In this document: positions 18,244 through 26,197 of the stretch, one piece after another
Numbering within the stretch: position 1 is the stretch's first letter
Layout: the number at the start of each line of letters is the position of its first letter
Origin: Bdellovibrio bacteriovorus
GTDB lineage: Bacteria > Bdellovibrionota > Bdellovibrionia > Bdellovibrionales > Bdellovibrionaceae
Length of the DNA stretch: 64,000 bases
Assembly: GCF_001592735.1 (NCBI RefSeq)
Contig: NZ_LUKE01000003.1
Coordinates: forward strand, 186,001 to 250,000
Reading direction: 5' to 3'
Made by a program: the position numbers and the translations under genes
Notes under the pieces: model-generated
The model's input: only the letters and a program-made list of their open reading frames with translations
What the model was told of the DNA's origin: nothing
The model's database searches: none

Positions 18244-20496
18244 TTAGTTCTTAATACAATCGACAAAGTAACGTTTCTTTCCGTTCTCATCACGCTCTGC
18301 CACCAGTCCGTGGACGTCGGTTTCAAAGCCTGGGAATTTCAGATTAAACTCGCGCGCGAATTTTAAATAATCCACCACCGTTTTGTTAAATCTTTCCCCA
18401 GGGATCAATAAAGGAATTCCCGGAGGGTAGGGAGTCAACAACACGGCCGTCACGCGATTTTCCAAGTCGTCGATTTCAATGCGCTCGATTTCTTCATGCG
18501 CCATTTTTGCAAAAGCGTCTGAAGGTTTCATGGCCGGCTGCATTTCGGATAAATACATTTCCGTCGTCATGCGCGCGACATTTTTAAACTTATAGGCTTC
18601 GTGAATTTGTTGGCAAAGATCCCTTAAGCCCATGCGCTCATAGCGGGGGTGAGCTGCCACAAACTGCGGCAAGATCTTCCACAGCGGTTGGTTTTTATCA
18701 TAGTCATCTTTAAATTGCTGCAAAGCCGTCAGCAACGTGTTCCAGCGGCCTTTGGTAATGCCGATGGTAAACATAATGAAAAATGAATAAAGACCGCACT
18801 TTTCAACAATGACCCCGTGTTCAGCTAGGTATTTCGTTACCATCGCGGCCGGAATCCCTTGATCAGCAAAGTCGCCATCCACATCCAGTCCCGGCGTGAT
18901 GATGGTCGCTTTGATGGGATCAAGCATGTTAAAGCCTTCAGCTAAGTTTCCAAAGCCGTGCCATTTGTCCTCGGGTTTTAAGACCCAGTTTTCTCGCGAA
19001 CCCACACCTTCTTCGGTGATGTCTTCTGGACCCCAGACTTTAAACCACCAATCCGTGCCCCATTCGTCGTCGACTTTTTTCATCGCGCGACGGAAATCCA
19101 TGGCTTCGGCAATACTTTCTTCCACCAAAGCTGTTCCCCCCGGCGCTTCCATCATCGAAGCCGCCACATCACAAGACGCAATAATGGAATACTGCGGACT
19201 TGTTGAGGTGTGCATCAAGTAGGCTTCATTAAAAATATGATGATTGAGTTTTTTATTTTCCGACTCGCTTACCAAAATTTGTGAAGCTTGCGAAAGACCT
19301 GCTAGTAGCTTGTGTGTAGACTGTGTTGAAAAGATGATAGAGTCTTTGGCGCGCGGGCGGTCCTTGCCGATGGCGTGCATGTCTTTATAAAAATCATGAA
19401 AAGCCGCATGCGGAAGCCACGCTTCATCAAAGTGAAGGGTGTGGATCTTGCCGTCGAGCATTTCTTTGATCGTTTCAACGTTATAAACCACACCGTCGTA
19501 TGTACTTTGGGTGATGGTCAAGATTCTCGGTTTTTTGGTTTTATCCTTAATAAAGGGGTTGGCATCAATTTTTCGTTGAATGCTTTCCATCGAAAATTCT
19601 TGTTTCGGGATCGGACCAATAATGCCGTAATGATTGCGGGTCGGTGTTAGAAACACCGGGATTGCGCCTGTCATCATGATCGCATGCAAGTTCGACTTAT
19701 GACAGTTACGGTCCACAACCACGATATCATCCGGGCCCACAGTGGAATGCCAAACAATCTTATTAGACGTGGAAGTTCCATTGGTCACAAAGAATAAGTG
19801 ATCCGCGTTAAAAATGCGCGCGGCATTTCTTTCTGAAGCAGCCACGGGGCCCGTGTGGTCCAGTAACTGCCCCAACTCATCCACGGCGTTACAGACGTCG
19901 GCGCGCAACATGTTTTCCCCAAAGAACTGATGAAACATTTGACCCACAGGCGACTTTAAGAAAGCCACGCCGCCAGAATGCCCTGGACAGTGCCAAGAGT
20001 AAGATCCATTTTGGGCGTAGTTAAGCAAAGCTCTGAAAAACGGAGGAGCAATCGAGTCTAGATAGGACTTAGCTTCGCGGATAATGTGTTTTGCCACAAA
20101 CTCTGGCGTATCTTCATGCATATGAATAAACCCATGCAGTTCACGCAAGATGTCGTTCGGGATGTGACGAGAGGTGCGTGTTTCGCCATACAGATAAATA
20201 GGAATCTCCGCATTTTTAAAGCGGATTTCCTCAATAAACGCGCGAACGCCTTTGAGGGCTTCAGCAATTTCATTTTGAGATCCTCCACCAAATTCCTCAT
20301 CATCAATAGATAAAAGAAAAGCAGAAGCTCTACTTTGTTGTTGCGCGAAAGCCGTCAGGTCGCCATAGCTGGTGACACCTAAAACTTCCATGCCTTCAGA
20401 TTCGATCGCCGCCGCTAGAGCTCTAATTCCAGAGCCGCTGGCGTTTTCTGATCTAAAGTCTTCATCGATAATAACAACCGGGAATTTAAATTTCAT
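18244..20496 (-). CDS. Orn/Lys/Arg decarboxylase, PLP-dependent (fold type I)
   Basis: A 750-residue inducible-type basic amino acid decarboxylase. The first ~130 residues form the response-regulator-like wing domain. The PLP domain follows, with WHCPGHSGGVAF (residues ~165-176), HFDEAW (PLP-interacting Asp) and STHKLLAGLSQ, whose Lys (~396) should form the Schiff base. The C-terminal domain (~600-750) is typical. Length fits AdiA, CadA and SpeC alike, so the substrate is not fixed by sequence reading. Divergence from argCJBR and nearby homospermidine synthase make ornithine (to putrescine) or arginine (to agmatine) the best candidates. Confidence 0.88.
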   Translation of the reverse strand: MKFKFPVVIIDEDFRSENASGSGIRALAAAIESEGMEVLGVTSYGDLTAFAQQQSRASAFLLSIDDEEFGGGSQNEIAEALKGVRAFIEEIRFKNAEIPIYLYGETRTSRHIPNDILRELHGFIHMHEDTPEFVAKHIIREAKSYLDSIAPPFFRALLNYAQNGSYSWHCPGHSGGVAFLKSPVGQMFHQFFGENMLRADVCNAVDELGQLLDHTGPVAASERNAARIFNADHLFFVTNGTSTSNKIVWHSTVGPDDIVVVDRNCHKSNLHAIMMTGAIPVFLTPTRNHYGIIGPIPKQEFSMESIQRKIDANPFIKDKTKKPRILTITQSTYDGVVYNVETIKEMLDGKIHTLHFDEAWLPHAAFHDFYKDMHAIGKDRPRAKDSIIFSTQSTHKLLAGLSQASQILVSESENKKLNHHIFNEAYLMHTSTSPQYSIIASCDVAASMMEAPGGTALVEESIAEAMDFRRAMKKVDDEWGTDWWFKVWGPEDITEEGVGSRENWVLKPEDKWHGFGNLAEGFNMLDPIKATIITPGLDVDGDFADQGIPAAMVTKYLAEHGVIVEKCGLYSFFIMFTIGITKGRWNTLLTALQQFKDDYDKNQPLWKILPQFVAAHPRYERMGLRDLCQQIHEAYKFKNVARMTTEMYLSEMQPAMKPSDAFAKMAHEEIERIEIDDLENRVTAVLLTPYPPGIPLLIPGERFNKTVVDYLKFAREFNLKFPGFETDVHGLVAERDENGKKRYFVDCIKN

Positions 20497-20573
20497 GTCA
20501 GGATTTCATTCCTTTCTTAAAAAGCTGTTGACGACTATTTATGCATATAATTACCGTAATAAGCAATTAAACA

Positions 20574-20602
20574 TTGACATATAGCTCATTATGCATGAAT
20601 AT
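20574..20602 (+). promoter_or_regulatory. Candidate argC promoter
   Basis: TTGACA at 20574-20579 is a perfect -35 box. Seventeen bases later lies GAATAT (20597-20602), a weak -10. The -10 lies inside the first ArgR-like box, which would let a bound repressor block RNA polymerase. Confidence 0.5.
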
Positions 20603-20627
20603 GCGCATATACGCATAAATATGCATA
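20590..20627 (+). promoter_or_regulatory. Tandem ArgR-like operator (two ARG boxes)
   Basis: Two 18-base, 9+9 palindrome-type boxes separated by 2 bases. The right box (20610-20627, TACGCATAAATATGCATA) agrees with its own reverse complement at 14 of 18 positions. The left box (20590-20607, TATGCATGAATATGCGCA) shares the TATGCATxA left half. Pairs of 18-base AT-rich palindromes 2-3 bases apart are the usual layout of ArgR operators, and argR is encoded in the operon immediately downstream. The half-site differs from the E. coli consensus, so this is an inference. Confidence 0.6.
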
Positions 20628-20715
20628 AGCATGGGAGCGTATAAATGCGACGCAAAAAAAGATTTCTGCGTCTGACTTAACGGTAACTCTTTTCCTAGTG
20701 AGGTGCTTTGAACCG

Positions 20716-21759
20716 ATGAAAAAAATAACTTGCTCCGTCGTTGGTGCTCGCGGCTACTCCGGCATAGAAACAGCTAGACTGCTGCTGCAACATCCGAATG
20801 TGCGTCTTACGCACTGTTTTGCTACCTCCGACTTTGAGCTCGGATCATTTTTTGGTTCTGCTTCTCTTATTGAAAAAGCGAACTCGGTTCAATGCCTGCC
20901 AGATTCTGAAATACTAAAAAATCTGACAGACGTGGTGTTCTTAGCAACCCCTGCGGAAACTTCTTTGAGTCTCGCACCAAAGATTATAGCCGCAGGTAAG
21001 AAAGTCATCGACCTCAGCGGAGCATTCCGTTTGAAAAACAATGACTACAAGAAATGGTATGGCTTTGAACACGACAACAAAGACTTATTAGCCACGGCAG
21101 AGTACGGCTTAAGTCCATGGGCGGGCCCGGCAGGAAAAACCAAGCTTGTGGCCAACCCAGGATGTTATGCGACGGCGATAACAATGGCCTTAGCGCCCTT
21201 GTTAAAAGCCGGCTTGATCGAAGAAAGCTCTGTGGTGGTTGATGCAAAGTCGGGAACATCAGGCGCCGGGAAAAAAGCATCGGAAAATATGCTTTTCACC
21301 GAAGTGGATGGCGAATGTCTGCCTTACAAAGTGGGTAAACATCAGCACTATCCAGAAATTGTTGAGGCGCTTGAAATGTTGACGGGAAAAAAAGTCGACC
21401 TTCATTTAACAACGTCTCTTTTGCCAACTCGTCGCGGAATTATTGCGGGCGTGTATGCAAAAGTAAAAGCGGGCGTAAGTTTAGATAAAGTAGAAAGCGC
21501 ATTTGCGGAAAGTTACCACGGATACGCTTTGGTTCGTCATGGAACTGTAACAAAAAATCCGAATCTATTGTCTTTAAAAAAGGTGGTAGGGACGGGGGAA
21601 ACCCATATCAGTTATGAACTAGAAGGAGGCAGACTTTATGTTTTCTCTTGCATTGATAACTTGCTTAAAGGGGCGGCGAGCCAAGCCGTAGAGAACTTAA
21701 ACCGTATTTTTGATTTCCCTGTTTCCACAGGCTTAACACAGTTGGAGGCACTCACATGA
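20716..21759 (+). CDS. argC: N-acetyl-gamma-glutamyl-phosphate reductase
   Basis: NADPH-dependent third step of arginine synthesis. The Rossmann loop is GARGYSGIE at the N terminus. The active-site Cys is in NPGCYATA (Cys ~150), with the downstream KSGTSGAGK motif. 347 residues from ATG 20716 fits the family; the GTG at 20698 lies within the GTGAGGTG ribosome-binding stretch and is not used. The stop overlaps the argJ start by 4 bases (ATGA). Confidence 0.95.
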   Translation: MKKITCSVVGARGYSGIETARLLLQHPNVRLTHCFATSDFELGSFFGSASLIEKANSVQCLPDSEILKNLTDVVFLATPAETSLSLAPKIIAAGKKVIDLSGAFRLKNNDYKKWYGFEHDNKDLLATAEYGLSPWAGPAGKTKLVANPGCYATAITMALAPLLKAGLIEESSVVVDAKSGTSGAGKKASENMLFTEVDGECLPYKVGKHQHYPEIVEALEMLTGKKVDLHLTTSLLPTRRGIIAGVYAKVKAGVSLDKVESAFAESYHGYALVRHGTVTKNPNLLSLKKVVGTGETHISYELEGGRLYVFSCIDNLLKGAASQAVENLNRIFDFPVSTGLTQLEALT

Positions 21760-22952
21760 CACCTGGACCTGGAGTACATCGCACACCTTTACCTAAAGGA
21801 TTTTTAGCAAGCGGCGTAAACTGCGGAGTTCGTAGATATCGCCCTGACATTGGTTTGCTTATTTCGGAAACGCCGGCCGTAGCGGCAGGTGTCTTTACAT
21901 TGAATGAATGTAAAGCCGCTCCTGTGCGCTACACGCAAAAACTTTTACCCGCGGATAATATTCGCGCGATCCTAACGAACTCGGGGCAAGCTAATGCGGC
22001 GACGGGGGATGAAGGGGTTGAAAAAAACTTGATGATGGTTTCAGCGGCGGCGAAAGCCTTGGGCTGTGATGTCAATCAAGTCTTGGTGGCAAGTACGGGT
22101 GTTATCGGCGTGCAGTTGGATACGGAAAAGATTTTGCCAAGCATGCCTGAACTGGTGGCGCGAGCAAATGATACGGCCGAAAGTTTTGCAACCGCAATCC
22201 TAACGACAGACCTTGTGCCTAAGTCGGTAACGACCGTGGTGGAGTTGTCGGGCGGACCTGTGCGCATCACCGGGATCAGCAAAGGCTCTGGCATGATTCA
22301 TCCGAACATGGCCACCATGCTGGGATATATTTTAACGGATGTGAAGTTAGAAAAAGATCATGCGAAAGACTTGATCAAGAAGGTCGCCGACCAAAGTTTC
22401 AACATGATCAGCGTTGATGGGGATTCATCCACGAATGACTGTTGCTTCTTAATGGCCAACGGCGCTTCAGGGGTGGCTCTTAAAACCGATGAGGACGTTA
22501 AAAAGTTTGAAGCGATTGTCACAGACATAGGAATTTTCCTAGCCAAATCCATCGCGGCGGACGGGGAAGGTGCCACCAAATTGATTGAGGTCGAGATCAA
22601 GGGATCCGACAATCTCGCGTTGGTCAGAAAAGCGGCTCGGGGAATCACTTTGTCGCCGTTAATTAAGACGGCCGTGCACGGTGAGGATCCGAACTGGGGG
22701 CGTATACTCGCTCGTCTTGGAGCTGAGGGCATTCCTGGGGCGCAGCTAGATAAAATGACTCTGCACTTGCAAGGTGTGTTACTATTTGAAAACGGTCAAC
22801 CCGTGAAGTTTGTGAAAGAAGAGGTGAAAGTCCTTCTGAAGCAAGCTCAAGTGAAAGTAGAAGTGGATTTAAAATCGGGACCCTTTGCTGCGACGGCCTG
22901 GGGATGCGATCTGTCTCGCAAATACGTCGATATTAATACGGAGTATTCGTGA
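21756..22952 (+). CDS. argJ: Bifunctional ornithine acetyltransferase / N-acetylglutamate synthase
   Basis: Moves the acetyl group from N-acetylornithine to glutamate (cyclic pathway), releasing ornithine. The self-cleavage site is in HPNMATMLGYI with Thr ~187 as nucleophile of the mature beta chain; KGSGMI just before it is also conserved. VHGEDPNWGRILAR near the C terminus is a family signature. 398 residues is normal. Overlaps argC by 4 bases and abuts argB (TGATG). No separate argA or argE is seen here. Confidence 0.95.
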   Translation: MTPGPGVHRTPLPKGFLASGVNCGVRRYRPDIGLLISETPAVAAGVFTLNECKAAPVRYTQKLLPADNIRAILTNSGQANAATGDEGVEKNLMMVSAAAKALGCDVNQVLVASTGVIGVQLDTEKILPSMPELVARANDTAESFATAILTTDLVPKSVTTVVELSGGPVRITGISKGSGMIHPNMATMLGYILTDVKLEKDHAKDLIKKVADQSFNMISVDGDSSTNDCCFLMANGASGVALKTDEDVKKFEAIVTDIGIFLAKSIAADGEGATKLIEVEIKGSDNLALVRKAARGITLSPLIKTAVHGEDPNWGRILARLGAEGIPGAQLDKMTLHLQGVLLFENGQPVKFVKEEVKVLLKQAQVKVEVDLKSGPFAATAWGCDLSRKYVDINTEYS

Positions 22953-23767
22953 TGAAAAAAAGAATTGTTATTAAACTGGGTGGCTCTTCATTGAGCCACG
23001 CAGAAACTTTAAATCAGCTTTCCGCCTTGGTTCACGGTTATCAAATGCAAGGTTTTGAAGTGGCAGTTGTTCACGGTGGTGGACCGGCGATCAACAATGA
23101 ACTGACGTTACAGGGAATTTCTTGGAAGTTTATCAACGGTCAAAGACAAACCACACCGGAAATGATGACGGTGATTGAAGATGTATTGGCTATTCAAGTG
23201 AACACGAAAATCGTGGATGCACTTAAAGCAAATGGCATCTCGGCGCAAAATCTTTCGGGCGCGAATCATCGCATTTTGTATTGCTCCCAAGCCAGTGAAG
23301 AACTGATGCAGGTGGGAACTATCGACGTGGTCAATATTTCTGCCATCGAATACGTGATGGGAGAAGCTGAAGCCGTACCGGTGATTGCGCCGATTGGTTT
23401 TGATGCGACGGGAAAGCGATACAATATCAATGCGGATTGGGCGGCGGTAAAAATTGCGGTGGCTTTAGAAGCAGAAATGTTGATTTTCCTTACTGATCAG
23501 GATGGAATATTGGATGGGAGCCGAAACTTGGTGCGCCATGCAACGCCCAGCCTGATTCAAGCAATGATTGATGACGGCACTATTTCCGGGGGCATGTACA
23601 CGAAAGTGATGACCATGATGCATGGGCTTAAAGAGGGCATTCAAGAAGTGCGCGTGATTAATGCGCACAAGGCGAGTGTGCTTCTGACAGAACCCGAGTT
23701 GGGGACAAGTTTGGTTTTAAATAATCCTTTGAAGGACGTAAGCCAATGGATACGAAAATTGAACTAA
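22952..23767 (+). CDS. argB: Acetylglutamate kinase
   Basis: Phosphorylates N-acetylglutamate; an amino-acid-kinase fold protein of 271 residues. N-terminal KLGGSS (ATP phosphate-binding), VVHGGGPAIN (substrate-binding glycine loop), NINADWAAVKIA and FLTDQDGIL (nucleotide site) are visible. ATG 22952 overlaps the argJ stop as TGATG and follows ACGGAG; the GTG three bases earlier is less likely. The 3' end overlaps argR by 22 bases. Confidence 0.95.
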   Translation: MKKRIVIKLGGSSLSHAETLNQLSALVHGYQMQGFEVAVVHGGGPAINNELTLQGISWKFINGQRQTTPEMMTVIEDVLAIQVNTKIVDALKANGISAQNLSGANHRILYCSQASEELMQVGTIDVVNISAIEYVMGEAEAVPVIAPIGFDATGKRYNINADWAAVKIAVALEAEMLIFLTDQDGILDGSRNLVRHATPSLIQAMIDDGTISGGMYTKVMTMMHGLKEGIQEVRVINAHKASVLLTEPELGTSLVLNNPLKDVSQWIRKLN

Positions 23768-24222
23768 AAAATGATTCGCAAGCACGTTTAGAGGTTTTGC
23801 AGCAACTCTTGCGTGAGGGCACGGCCAGCACGCAAGACGAGCTGTGCAAAGCTTTAAGACAAAAAAAGTTTCACGTGACGCAAAGTACGATTTCAAGAGA
23901 CCTTCGCCGTATCGGAGCCATGAAGACTTTAAATTCCGACGGCGAAACGGTTTATACTCTTTCGGGGCGGGCGTCGACATTGCCCGCACCGGTCAGTCAT
24001 TCCCTAGGACATTTGCTTTTAGATATTCAAGCCAATGACAGCATGATCGTTCTCCACACGTCGCCTGGATCAGCAAGTTTGGTGGCTCGTCATATTGATT
24101 CGATGCGGGAGCATTTGGGAACTTTGGGAACTATCGCTGGCGATGATACGATTTTCATCGCTCCGGCTTCGACGCGCCAGATTCCGTCGGTGATTAAAAA
24201 AATCAAAGAAGAGCTTTACTAG
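23746..24222 (+). CDS. argR: Arginine repressor ArgR
   Basis: Hexameric transcription factor that binds ARG boxes when arginine is bound. The N-terminal winged helix (residues ~20-75) has VTQSTISRDLRRIGAMK, the recognition-helix motif of the family. The C-terminal domain (~85-158) has TSPGSASLVARHID and GTIAGDDTIFIA, the oligomerisation and arginine-binding segments. 158 residues is typical. As last gene of argCJBR it is probably under its own control through the boxes at 20590-20627. Confidence 0.95.
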   Translation: MDTKIELKNDSQARLEVLQQLLREGTASTQDELCKALRQKKFHVTQSTISRDLRRIGAMKTLNSDGETVYTLSGRASTLPAPVSHSLGHLLLDIQANDSMIVLHTSPGSASLVARHIDSMREHLGTLGTIAGDDTIFIAPASTRQIPSVIKKIKEELY

Positions 24223-24245
24223 ATATCTTAAAATCACTTCTTAAA

Positions 24246-24280
24246 ATAAAAAAGGCGATCAGAATGACCGCCTTTTTTTG
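24246..24280 (+). terminator. Terminator of the argCJBR operon
   Basis: A-rich left flank, AAAAAGGCG arm, short loop, CGCC arm and a run of seven T (24273-24279). The left A-run could also let it work for the minus-strand gene ending at 24302. Confidence 0.8.
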
Positions 24281-24301
24281 TTTTATCTCTTCATTCAAAA
24301 A

Positions 24302-24589
24302 CTAGTGAGTGCAGTGAGCAACACCGTCGATGAAAAGGATTTGCATGGTTGCAGAACCTAGGCTGTAGCTTACGCGTTCAACTGTTTGGCCTTGAGCATT
24401 TTTAGATTCAGCAATATTGCCGATACCTTTGTAAGTCGTGTTGTTAAAGCCTTCAATAGTCACCAAAGGTAAAGCGTCTGCAGAGCGACCGATGGTGTAA
24501 GTCGTGCGACCGCAAGTGTAGCTTCCCGTTGTGAAAGCAAAAGCTGATGAAGAAGCAAGTAGGGCTGCTAAAGAAATCAATAGTTTCAT
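24302..24589 (-). CDS. Small secreted protein of unknown function
   Basis: A 95-residue protein that I do not recognise. A clear signal peptide (MKLLISLAALLASSSAFA) is followed by ~77 residues, beta-rich, with two cysteines (in YTCG and AHCTH) that could form a disulfide. A strong CGGAGGA ribosome site precedes the ATG. It is probably a single-gene unit. Confidence 0.7.
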   Translation of the reverse strand: MKLLISLAALLASSSAFAFTTGSYTCGRTTYTIGRSADALPLVTIEGFNNTTYKGIGNIAESKNAQGQTVERVSYSLGSATMQILFIDGVAHCTH

Positions 24590-24710
24590 AAAATCCTCCG
24601 TTTTAAATTGGCAAAGAAAAAACTAGTCCTACTTTGGTCGTCTGGCCACGACTTTTTTGAAAATGCCCGCTTTGTAAATTATCACGCTGTGTAATAGAGG
24701 TAAAAGATAC

Positions 24711-24739
24711 AAAAAAAAGCCCTCTTATTCAAGAGGGCT
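24711..24739 (-). terminator. Terminator of homospermidine synthase
   Basis: On the minus strand AGCCCTCTT and AAGAGGGCT form a perfect 9-base stem with a 4-base loop, followed by a run of T (complement of the A-run at 24711-24718). It lies 7 bases after the stop codon. Confidence 0.9.
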
Positions 24740-24745
24740 TGGGGG

Positions 24746-26197
24746 TTAACGAACTAATATATTTCTAAACTGCCAAGGATCGCTCTTATCGATGTCCTCG
24801 GGGAATAATCCCGGGCGACCTTCCAGCGGCGTCCAATCCGTGTAGTAACCTTTTACTGGTCCTAAATACGGGGTCTGCCATTTTAAGCAGGCGGCAAAAT
24901 CCATCTCGTCGGCTTCAACAATGCCAGCCTTTGGATTTTCCAAAGCCCAAGCCATTCCTGCAATCACCGCCGAGCTTACTTGTAAGCCCGTGGCATTCTG
25001 ATACGGGGCAATCGCGCGCGTTTCTTCAATGCTTAATTGCGATCCATACCAGTAAGCGTTTTTACCGTGACCGTATAAAAGCACTCCCAGCTCATCAATC
25101 CCGTCGATGACTTCGTTTTCATCTAAAATGTGATGTTCAGGTTGGCGCTCTCCGGCGCGACCAAACATTTCCTCTAATGACAAAACGGCATCGTTGCACG
25201 GGTGGTACGCGTAATGGCACGTCGGACGATATTCAACGTTGTTTCCAGTGCCTACGGTGAAGTAGTCAGCAATCGAAATCGACTCGTTGTGTGTCACTAA
25301 GCGCCCGTACTGTGCCCCTGGGGTTGGACACCAAGAGCGAACTTTGGTGTTAGCACCGGGTTGTTGCAGGTAAATAGCCGCTTGGCATCCAGCTTCATGG
25401 CGACGGCCCGTTTCAGGCATCCATTTTTCATGAGTACCCCAACCAAGTTCAGCGGGCTGCATGCCTTCACTGATAAAGCCTTCCACGGACCAAGTGTTCA
25501 CAAAGTTATTGGCAGGTTTGGCGTGTTTAGAGCGCTGGGTATCGCGTTCAGCAATGTGGATGCCTTTAACACCCACTTTTTGCATAAGGCGGCCCCATTC
25601 TTCACGAGTCTTCGGAGTCTCGTGAGGGATCGCTAAATCTTTTGCCAGGTTTAAAAGTGCTTGTTTTACAAACCAAGACACCATGCCAGGGTTTGCGCCA
25701 CAGCAACTGACCGCCGTGATGCCGCCGGGGCTGTTGCGTTTTTCTTCTAAAAGAGTTTCACGCAAGGCATAGTTGGTGCGCGCATCATTAGACATCTTGG
25801 TATCAAAGTAAAACCCCGCCCAAGGTTCGACGACCGTATCGATATAGTGCGCATCCAAAGAGCGGCACAAAGTCATCACGTCCAGGGAGGACACGTCTAC
25901 AGACAAGTTCACGCAGAACCCGGTGCCCCCTTTTCCGTCGCGCAGAAGGGGTTTTAAGACAGCCTCGTAATTATCATGAGTTAACGCTTGTTTGATTAAG
26001 CGGATACCTCGTTGATCCAAAAGCTCGCGATCTTTTTCGCTAGGGTCGATAACTACCAGACGGTTTTTATCAAACTTAAAATGGCGCTCTAAAAGTGGCA
26101 AAGTGCCTTTTCCGATAGAGCCGAAACCGATCAATACGATGGGTCCGGTGATCTCGCCATAGTGTCCCTTTGGAACAGTATAGGTATTTTTAGTCAT
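24746..26197 (-). CDS. hss: Homospermidine synthase
   Basis: NAD-dependent enzyme that joins two aminobutyl groups to give the polyamine homospermidine, usually from putrescine. A saccharopine-dehydrogenase-like Rossmann fold opens with VLIGFGSIGKGTLPLL. YIDTVVEPWAGFY and SCCGANPGMVSWFVKQAL are typical of bacterial HSS. The 483-residue length matches. It is transcribed alone on the minus strand. Its 5' leader (26198-26280) contains two short palindromes. It complements the decarboxylase at 18244-20496 in a polyamine route. Confidence 0.9.
   Translation of the reverse strand: MTKNTYTVPKGHYGEITGPIVLIGFGSIGKGTLPLLERHFKFDKNRLVVIDPSEKDRELLDQRGIRLIKQALTHDNYEAVLKPLLRDGKGGTGFCVNLSVDVSSLDVMTLCRSLDAHYIDTVVEPWAGFYFDTKMSNDARTNYALRETLLEEKRNSPGGITAVSCCGANPGMVSWFVKQALLNLAKDLAIPHETPKTREEWGRLMQKVGVKGIHIAERDTQRSKHAKPANNFVNTWSVEGFISEGMQPAELGWGTHEKWMPETGRRHEAGCQAAIYLQQPGANTKVRSWCPTPGAQYGRLVTHNESISIADYFTVGTGNNVEYRPTCHYAYHPCNDAVLSLEEMFGRAGERQPEHHILDENEVIDGIDELGVLLYGHGKNAYWYGSQLSIEETRAIAPYQNATGLQVSSAVIAGMAWALENPKAGIVEADEMDFAACLKWQTPYLGPVKGYYTDWTPLEGRPGLFPEDIDKSDPWQFRNILVR

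Follow-up and report, generated by a model that had tools for sequence, protein, structure and literature searches.

Based on the gene content, the conservation and the motif observed in this work, we propose that an operator of the arginine repressor ArgR (20530-20627) has been retained over a gene cassette that would lead from glutamate through ornithine to polyamines and that lacks argF, argG and argH, a reading to which we give a probability of about 0.65. Positions refer to the window, namely the whole 64,000-nt stretch that was analysed (contig NZ_LUKE01000003.1, positions 186,001-250,000, forward strand; its genome is labelled G000). What is new here is the survival of the operator and its likely reuse without arginine synthesis, together with a phased third box. 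The features of the locus are collected in Table 1.

Table 1. Predicted regulatory elements and genes around the argC operator in the window.
Feature	Position	Strand	Sequence or family match	Remark
Orn/Lys/Arg decarboxylase family gene	18244-20496	-	Pfam OKR_DC_1, _N, _C	750 aa
ArgR box 3 (predicted, weaker)	20530-20547		GACGACTATTTATGCATA	14.1 bits, third in the window; decarboxylase side
-35 of the presumed argC promoter	20574-20579	+	TTGACA	TTGAC also ahead of the pair in most relatives
ArgR box 1 (predicted)	20590-20607		TATGCATGAATATGCGCA	17.9 bits; over the presumed -10 of argC
ArgR box 2 (predicted)	20610-20627		TACGCATAAATATGCATA	22.5 bits, top site of the window
Candidate leader ORF (uncertain)	20645-20680	+	MRRKKRFLRLT	4 Arg in 11 residues
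argC, N-acetyl-gamma-glutamyl-phosphate reductase	20716-21759	+	TIGR01850	322.8 bits, cut-off 233.6
argJ, bifunctional ornithine/glutamate N-acetyltransferase	21756-22952	+	TIGR00120	420.5 bits, cut-off 298
argB, acetylglutamate kinase	22949-23767	+	TIGR00761	188.5 bits, cut-off 151.3
argR, arginine repressor	23746-24222	+	TIGR01529	132.6 bits, cut-off 130.45
Homospermidine synthase	24746-26197	-	4plp and others; Sacchrp_dh domains	800.6 bits over residues 13-483

The two 18-base boxes 2 bases apart that the first-pass annotation had described are present as boxes 1 and 2; argR, as it had also stated, closes the operon argC-argJ-argB-argR, and the decarboxylase gene begins 94 bases away on the other strand (start codon at 20496, box 1 start at 20590). 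That annotation had overlooked box 3 and the absence of the arginine-specific genes. Both boxes are 18-bp imperfect palindromes in tandem, built on the half-site TATGCAT with a 4-bp centre, and the two exact matches of TRYGCATNNNNATGCRYA in the 3.93-Mb genome are box 1 and box 2 themselves. When up to 2 mismatches are allowed, TATGCATNNNNATGCATA is found at eight places of the whole genome, two of them being these boxes, versus five for a reversed-pattern control, so that the loose matches elsewhere are about what background would give; the strict pattern TATGCATAANNNTTATGCATA has no match within the window. Two further genome sites, C1:905878 (17.8 bits) and C1:639587 (15.6 bits), were rejected as operators because they lie inside reading frames, the former in an ORF that we take from its sequence to be DAHP-synthase-like and the latter in ORF 399-1547 of L220.

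For scoring, a symmetric 18-bp matrix with the consensus TATGCATAATTATGCATA was learned from 18 argC loci, leaving out G000 and two further genomes, G004 and G044. In the window it ranked the sites at 20610, 20590 and 20530 first to third, followed by one at 20600 (13.1 bits) that represents the overlap of boxes 1 and 2 in a 10-bp register, and all other sites were lower. In 60 dinucleotide-shuffled versions of the window, 22.4 bits was never reached and 17.9 bits once, and the 14-bit level of the third box came up in 25; the third box therefore rests on conservation rather than on score. In leave-one-out runs, which were seeded with the consensus of all 18 loci and thus carry a mild leak, 17 of the 18 relatives scored above all 100 of their own shuffles. 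The held-out loci of G004 (16.1 bits) and G044 (12.8 bits) fell short of the highest score among 200 shuffles each (16.7 and 13.7 bits).

The argC loci used for comparison were gathered by protein search across the order, where a strong argC (E < 1e-30) occurs in 19 of 78 genomes and the remaining listed matches are weak, and from named records (7 loci, two of which duplicate contigs of G044 and G085). Boxes scoring at least 12 bits precede argC in 21 of the 24 readable regions of the order, L142 being omitted because a contig end cuts its upstream region. Of these 21, 17 carry argR within the locus itself, one has it on a separate contig of its genome (L152/L153), and in three (L138, L151, L016) it lies past the contig end; the three box-less regions (L149, L150 and L022, best sites 6.8, 6.5 and 3.6 bits) hold no argR within the fetched stretch. 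These three are argC-J-B clusters, with argF, argG and argH missing from the fetched stretch along with argR and the boxes. In G000, argR is the only PF01316 match of the genome, and its product has both Pfam domains above their cut-offs (PF01316 57.9, cut-off 27; PF02863 71.3, cut-off 25) and retains QSTISRDL, the stretch of the recognition helix, and GTIAGDDT, as in the relatives. On the grounds of conservation across the order, presence where argR is present and matrix rank, 20590-20627 can be taken, with high probability, as an operator of ArgR whose half-site is TGCAT.

In E. coli, ArgR recognises a TGAAT half-site in paired 18-bp palindromes that lie 2-3 bp apart over arg promoters, and its regulon takes in many such promoters; a TGCAT-containing operator is known in M. 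tuberculosis. The pair reported here resembles the E. coli arrangement in palindrome length, spacing and location over an arg promoter, but carries TGCAT instead of TGAAT and lacks the many arg promoters of that regulon. ArgR-bound fragments of Streptomyces coelicolor also hold TGCAT-type ARG boxes, those of argG (CTTTGCATGGTCATGCGTAA) and argH (TCATGCATGAGTATGCAGAA) among them (PMC5839063, Table 1). The recognition sequence is therefore not new for the family, TGAAT marks the E. coli form and not ArgR as a whole, and the lineage-specific shift that had been suggested along with the operator is not borne out. As far as that source describes them, the S. coelicolor boxes are likewise single or tandem near arg starts, but the tandem ones are 20-mers 0-1 nt apart (one pair 10) within a broad regulon (PMC5839063), in contrast to the 18-mers 2 bp apart here, with their phased third box and single locus.

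Box 1 starts 10 bp past TTGACA, and a -10 element at 15-19 bp spacing would fall within it, the position that the first-pass annotation had given for the argC -10, but the best TATAAT match is 3 of 6, and a consensus promoter scan found no promoter on the + strand. Further downstream, the candidate leader ORF is preceded by GGGAG at 20633-20637, 7 bases ahead of its ATG. Equally Arg-rich short ORFs make up 9 of 518 in the window and the ORF was not seen in G004, and it is possible that it encodes an arginine-sensing leader peptide or that it arose by chance. Attenuation by this ORF was considered; no terminator was found, and the leader fold gave a z of -2.35. The argC frame of G004 and of some relatives starts within or next to an operator box (ATGCATAAA...), at L160 7401, L136 6731 (minus strand) and L019 about 5000; this start, close behind the presumed -10, suggests that argC mRNA is leaderless or near-leaderless there. 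The argC of the window has no start of this kind, its own lying about 90 bases downstream, with a possible alternative GTG at 20698.

Most relatives have, behind TTGAC, two boxes separated by 2-3 bp, and an outer box across TTGAC from this pair, on the side of the divergent gene. Start to start, the outer box lies 42-44, 50-53 or 60-63 bp from the near box and 62-65, 70-73 or 80-84 bp from the far box, so that the distance classes step by about one helical turn. Over all loci the spacing is non-uniform at 10.5 bp (R 0.79 and 0.74; p 1e-5 and 6e-5), and when each genus contributed a single value and the period was left free between 8 and 14 bp, p was 0.0004 and 0.0026. The best-fit periods, four in all, were 9.75, 10.0, 10.25 and 10.5 bp; the box calls came from the matrix trained on most of the same loci. 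The set comprised 17 of the 21 box-bearing loci, since L016, L141 and L147 have no -35 by rule and L020, with no clear -35 and outer box, was dropped by the analyst; within it, the -35 of L019 was assigned by eye because the script's choice was wrong, the pair of L152 is ambiguous and L021 has a single near box. One genus (g18) spans distance classes, with the far box at 62 and at 72-73 bp, which favours phasing over a constant spacing. The boxes may thus be bound on the same helical face, perhaps by one hexamer or by adjoining hexamers.

In the window the third box lies about 34 bp ahead of the decarboxylase start, and the minus strand carries TTGCTT and, 17 bp further, CATAAA inside this box. 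With a possible decarboxylase -10 lying within the third box, one would most simply expect both sides to be repressed. The earlier suggestion that one site could control both directions is plausible in its outcome, but by way of a separate third box and not of one shared site.

The locus order of the relatives is argH<-argG<-|operator|->argC-argJ-argB-argF-argR, and in L136, for instance, ArgF, ArgG and ArgH score above their cut-offs. The window has the same operator and the same argCJB plus argR order, but differs from these loci in that argF, argG and argH are present there and the decarboxylase and homospermidine synthase were not found there; a decarboxylase of the winged type, divergent from argC, takes the place of argG-argH, and the homospermidine synthase gene follows downstream on the other strand. 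ArgR, the decarboxylase and a full-length homospermidine synthase each occur in two of the 24 genus genomes, G000 and G004, where the decarboxylase too is full-length, a third, weak match to the synthase spanning 85 residues; a strong argC was found in G000 alone among the 15 genus genomes of the argC survey, a sample outside which G004 lies. The block recurs in G004 with its orientation unchanged, and of the 18 kb compared, DNA similarity between the two genomes is restricted to 18295-26174 of the window, from the decarboxylase to the homospermidine synthase. In G044, which belongs to another family, a 5-kb contig has the decarboxylase divergent from argC-argJ. In an argC tree the three decarboxylase-linked rows cluster inside the argG-linked rows with 89/87 support, which is below the tool's bar, and the G+C of the cassette (0.43-0.51) is not clearly unlike that of its flanks. 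This picture fits a history in which the decarboxylase replaced argGH once and the block was later transferred, with loss of the block in most of the genus as the alternative to transfer. Separately, L021 (4980-8544, MAG SulCav_GS09) holds argC-J-B-R with a 23-bit box at argC, and without argF, argG, argH or the decarboxylase in the locus; it is perhaps another case of an operator outliving the arginine end of the pathway.

The locus could also be an ordinary arginine operon whose argF, argG and argH went unrecognised and whose operator acts as in E. coli. The presence of argCJBR with a normal ArgR, and of the full gene set in the same locus of relatives, speaks for such an operon, which we nevertheless regard as improbable: the family searches were positive in all 14 control genomes, but in G000 the argG, argF and argH models gave only sub-cut-off matches (20, 90 and 74 bits versus 268, 281 and 280), the argG-like one being MnmA and the argF-like one an aspartate carbamoyltransferase adjoining carA. 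No argF lies in the window locus, and 22 of the 24 genus genomes have no ArgR at all. G000 thus seems, to judge from its genes, unable to make arginine, and with argF, argG and argH gone the operator now stands over the glutamate-to-ornithine branch. For acetylornithine aminotransferase (argD) no match above cut-off was found in G000, the best (149 of 410 bits) being HemL-like, and the same test found no argD in 19 of the 20 genomes examined, most of them with a full arg locus. A class-III aminotransferase gene directly followed by that of an ArgE/DapE-like M20 deacylase, both below the curated cut-offs, lies at 1291-4014 of L216 (G000 contig C1), and this aminotransferase is a candidate for the missing enzyme. 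Less probable still is that the boxes are a palindromic cluster arisen by chance or unrelated to ArgR, or that a different regulator binds there. Short AT-rich palindromes do arise by chance and the third box by itself does not stand out against shuffles, but order-wide conservation, the association with argR, the matrix rank and the restriction of exact sites in the genome to two all stand against this.

A more serious contender, though still an unlikely one, is a catabolic switch, with an AdiA/LdcA-type decarboxylase whose substrate is imported arginine or lysine and whose gene is activated by arginine-loaded ArgR, which at the same time represses argCJB. ArgR/AhrC can act as an activator of catabolic genes in other bacteria, and the decarboxylase matches best, among solved relatives, 6q6i (801 bits), deposited as a biodegradative arginine decarboxylase and, as we take it, P. 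aeruginosa LdcA, and then arginine (551 bits) and lysine (540 bits) enzymes, both groups lying at about 509-551 bits, ahead of ornithine enzymes (368 bits). It is below cut-off in every substrate-specific NCBIfam model listed, whether for ornithine, lysine or arginine. It has been argued that the three decarboxylase activities of this family arose in parallel and that each enzyme remains somewhat active on the substrates of the others (PMC8503589), so that sequence alone does not settle the substrate. Ornithine as the substrate is thus a guess from context, the enzyme being nearer to 6q6i and to the arginine and lysine enzymes than to the ornithine ones. Yet a catabolic switch leaves unexplained both the retention of argCJB without argFGH and the linked homospermidine synthase, and the third box, over the possible decarboxylase -10, has a place that suits repression. 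As no route from ornithine to arginine is evident in G000, the simplest use of ornithine would be decarboxylation to putrescine followed by conversion to homospermidine.

The regulon appears to be confined to the argC locus, because no box of 12 bits was found at any of 17 carA loci, that of G000 included (best 11.9 bits); 30 argD-like loci gave one site of at least 12 bits (12.2 bits, in L218 of G004). Of the other arg genes that the first-pass annotation had named for comparison, argF, argG and argH have no member above the family cut-offs in G000, so that a motif missing there would not count against the operator. The homospermidine synthase gene is transcribed toward argR from beyond 26197, and no strong box lies on its upstream side among the best 15 matrix sites of the window; with an upstream side of its own and no strong box there, it is probably outside ArgR control. 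ArgR over polyamine genes has a precedent, as the putrescine genes speF and potE are described as genome-specific regulon members in single gammaproteobacterial genomes, the core of those regulons being, unlike here, arginine biosynthesis (PMC5343134). In its account of distribution, as far as that source goes, ArgR is absent from the other classes studied and Bdellovibrio is not mentioned (PMC5343134). In the open-access literature searched on Bdellovibrio, ArgR and homospermidine, a scope that took in few subscription papers, no description of the arrangement was found.

We infer the action of ArgR and the metabolic flow as follows. The operator would stem from the order's ancestral argHG<-|operator|->argCJBFR locus. 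In G000 and G004, from which argF, argG and argH are gone, argCJB and argR form a compact cassette with the decarboxylase and the homospermidine synthase, and in it ornithine could be decarboxylated to putrescine and putrescine converted to homospermidine. ArgR with its co-effector, probably arginine from prey, may bind the box pair and block the argC promoter, whose -10 position is covered by box 1; it would thereby repress argCJBR, itself included, and by way of the third box it may act on the decarboxylase as well. When arginine is plentiful, the ornithine and decarboxylase steps would thus be switched down. Bdellovibrio, the genus that the named relatives imply for this organism, is predatory; prey-derived arginine would then be a signal of amino-acid supply for the predator. 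More tentatively, and at somewhat less than even odds, the regulator may have outlived its pathway in the full sense that the three-box operator, its third box held to the same helical face as the pair, controls at this one locus a transferable cassette leading from glutamate through ornithine to homospermidine, with prey-derived arginine (or ornithine) as the signal.

If this is true, a feedback repressor would have been reused after the end of its pathway was lost, and the early half of arginine synthesis together with ArgR would have become a polyamine module. The operator design would be a box pair with a third box placed at whole helical turns, and the predator would have an ArgR regulon of one locus.
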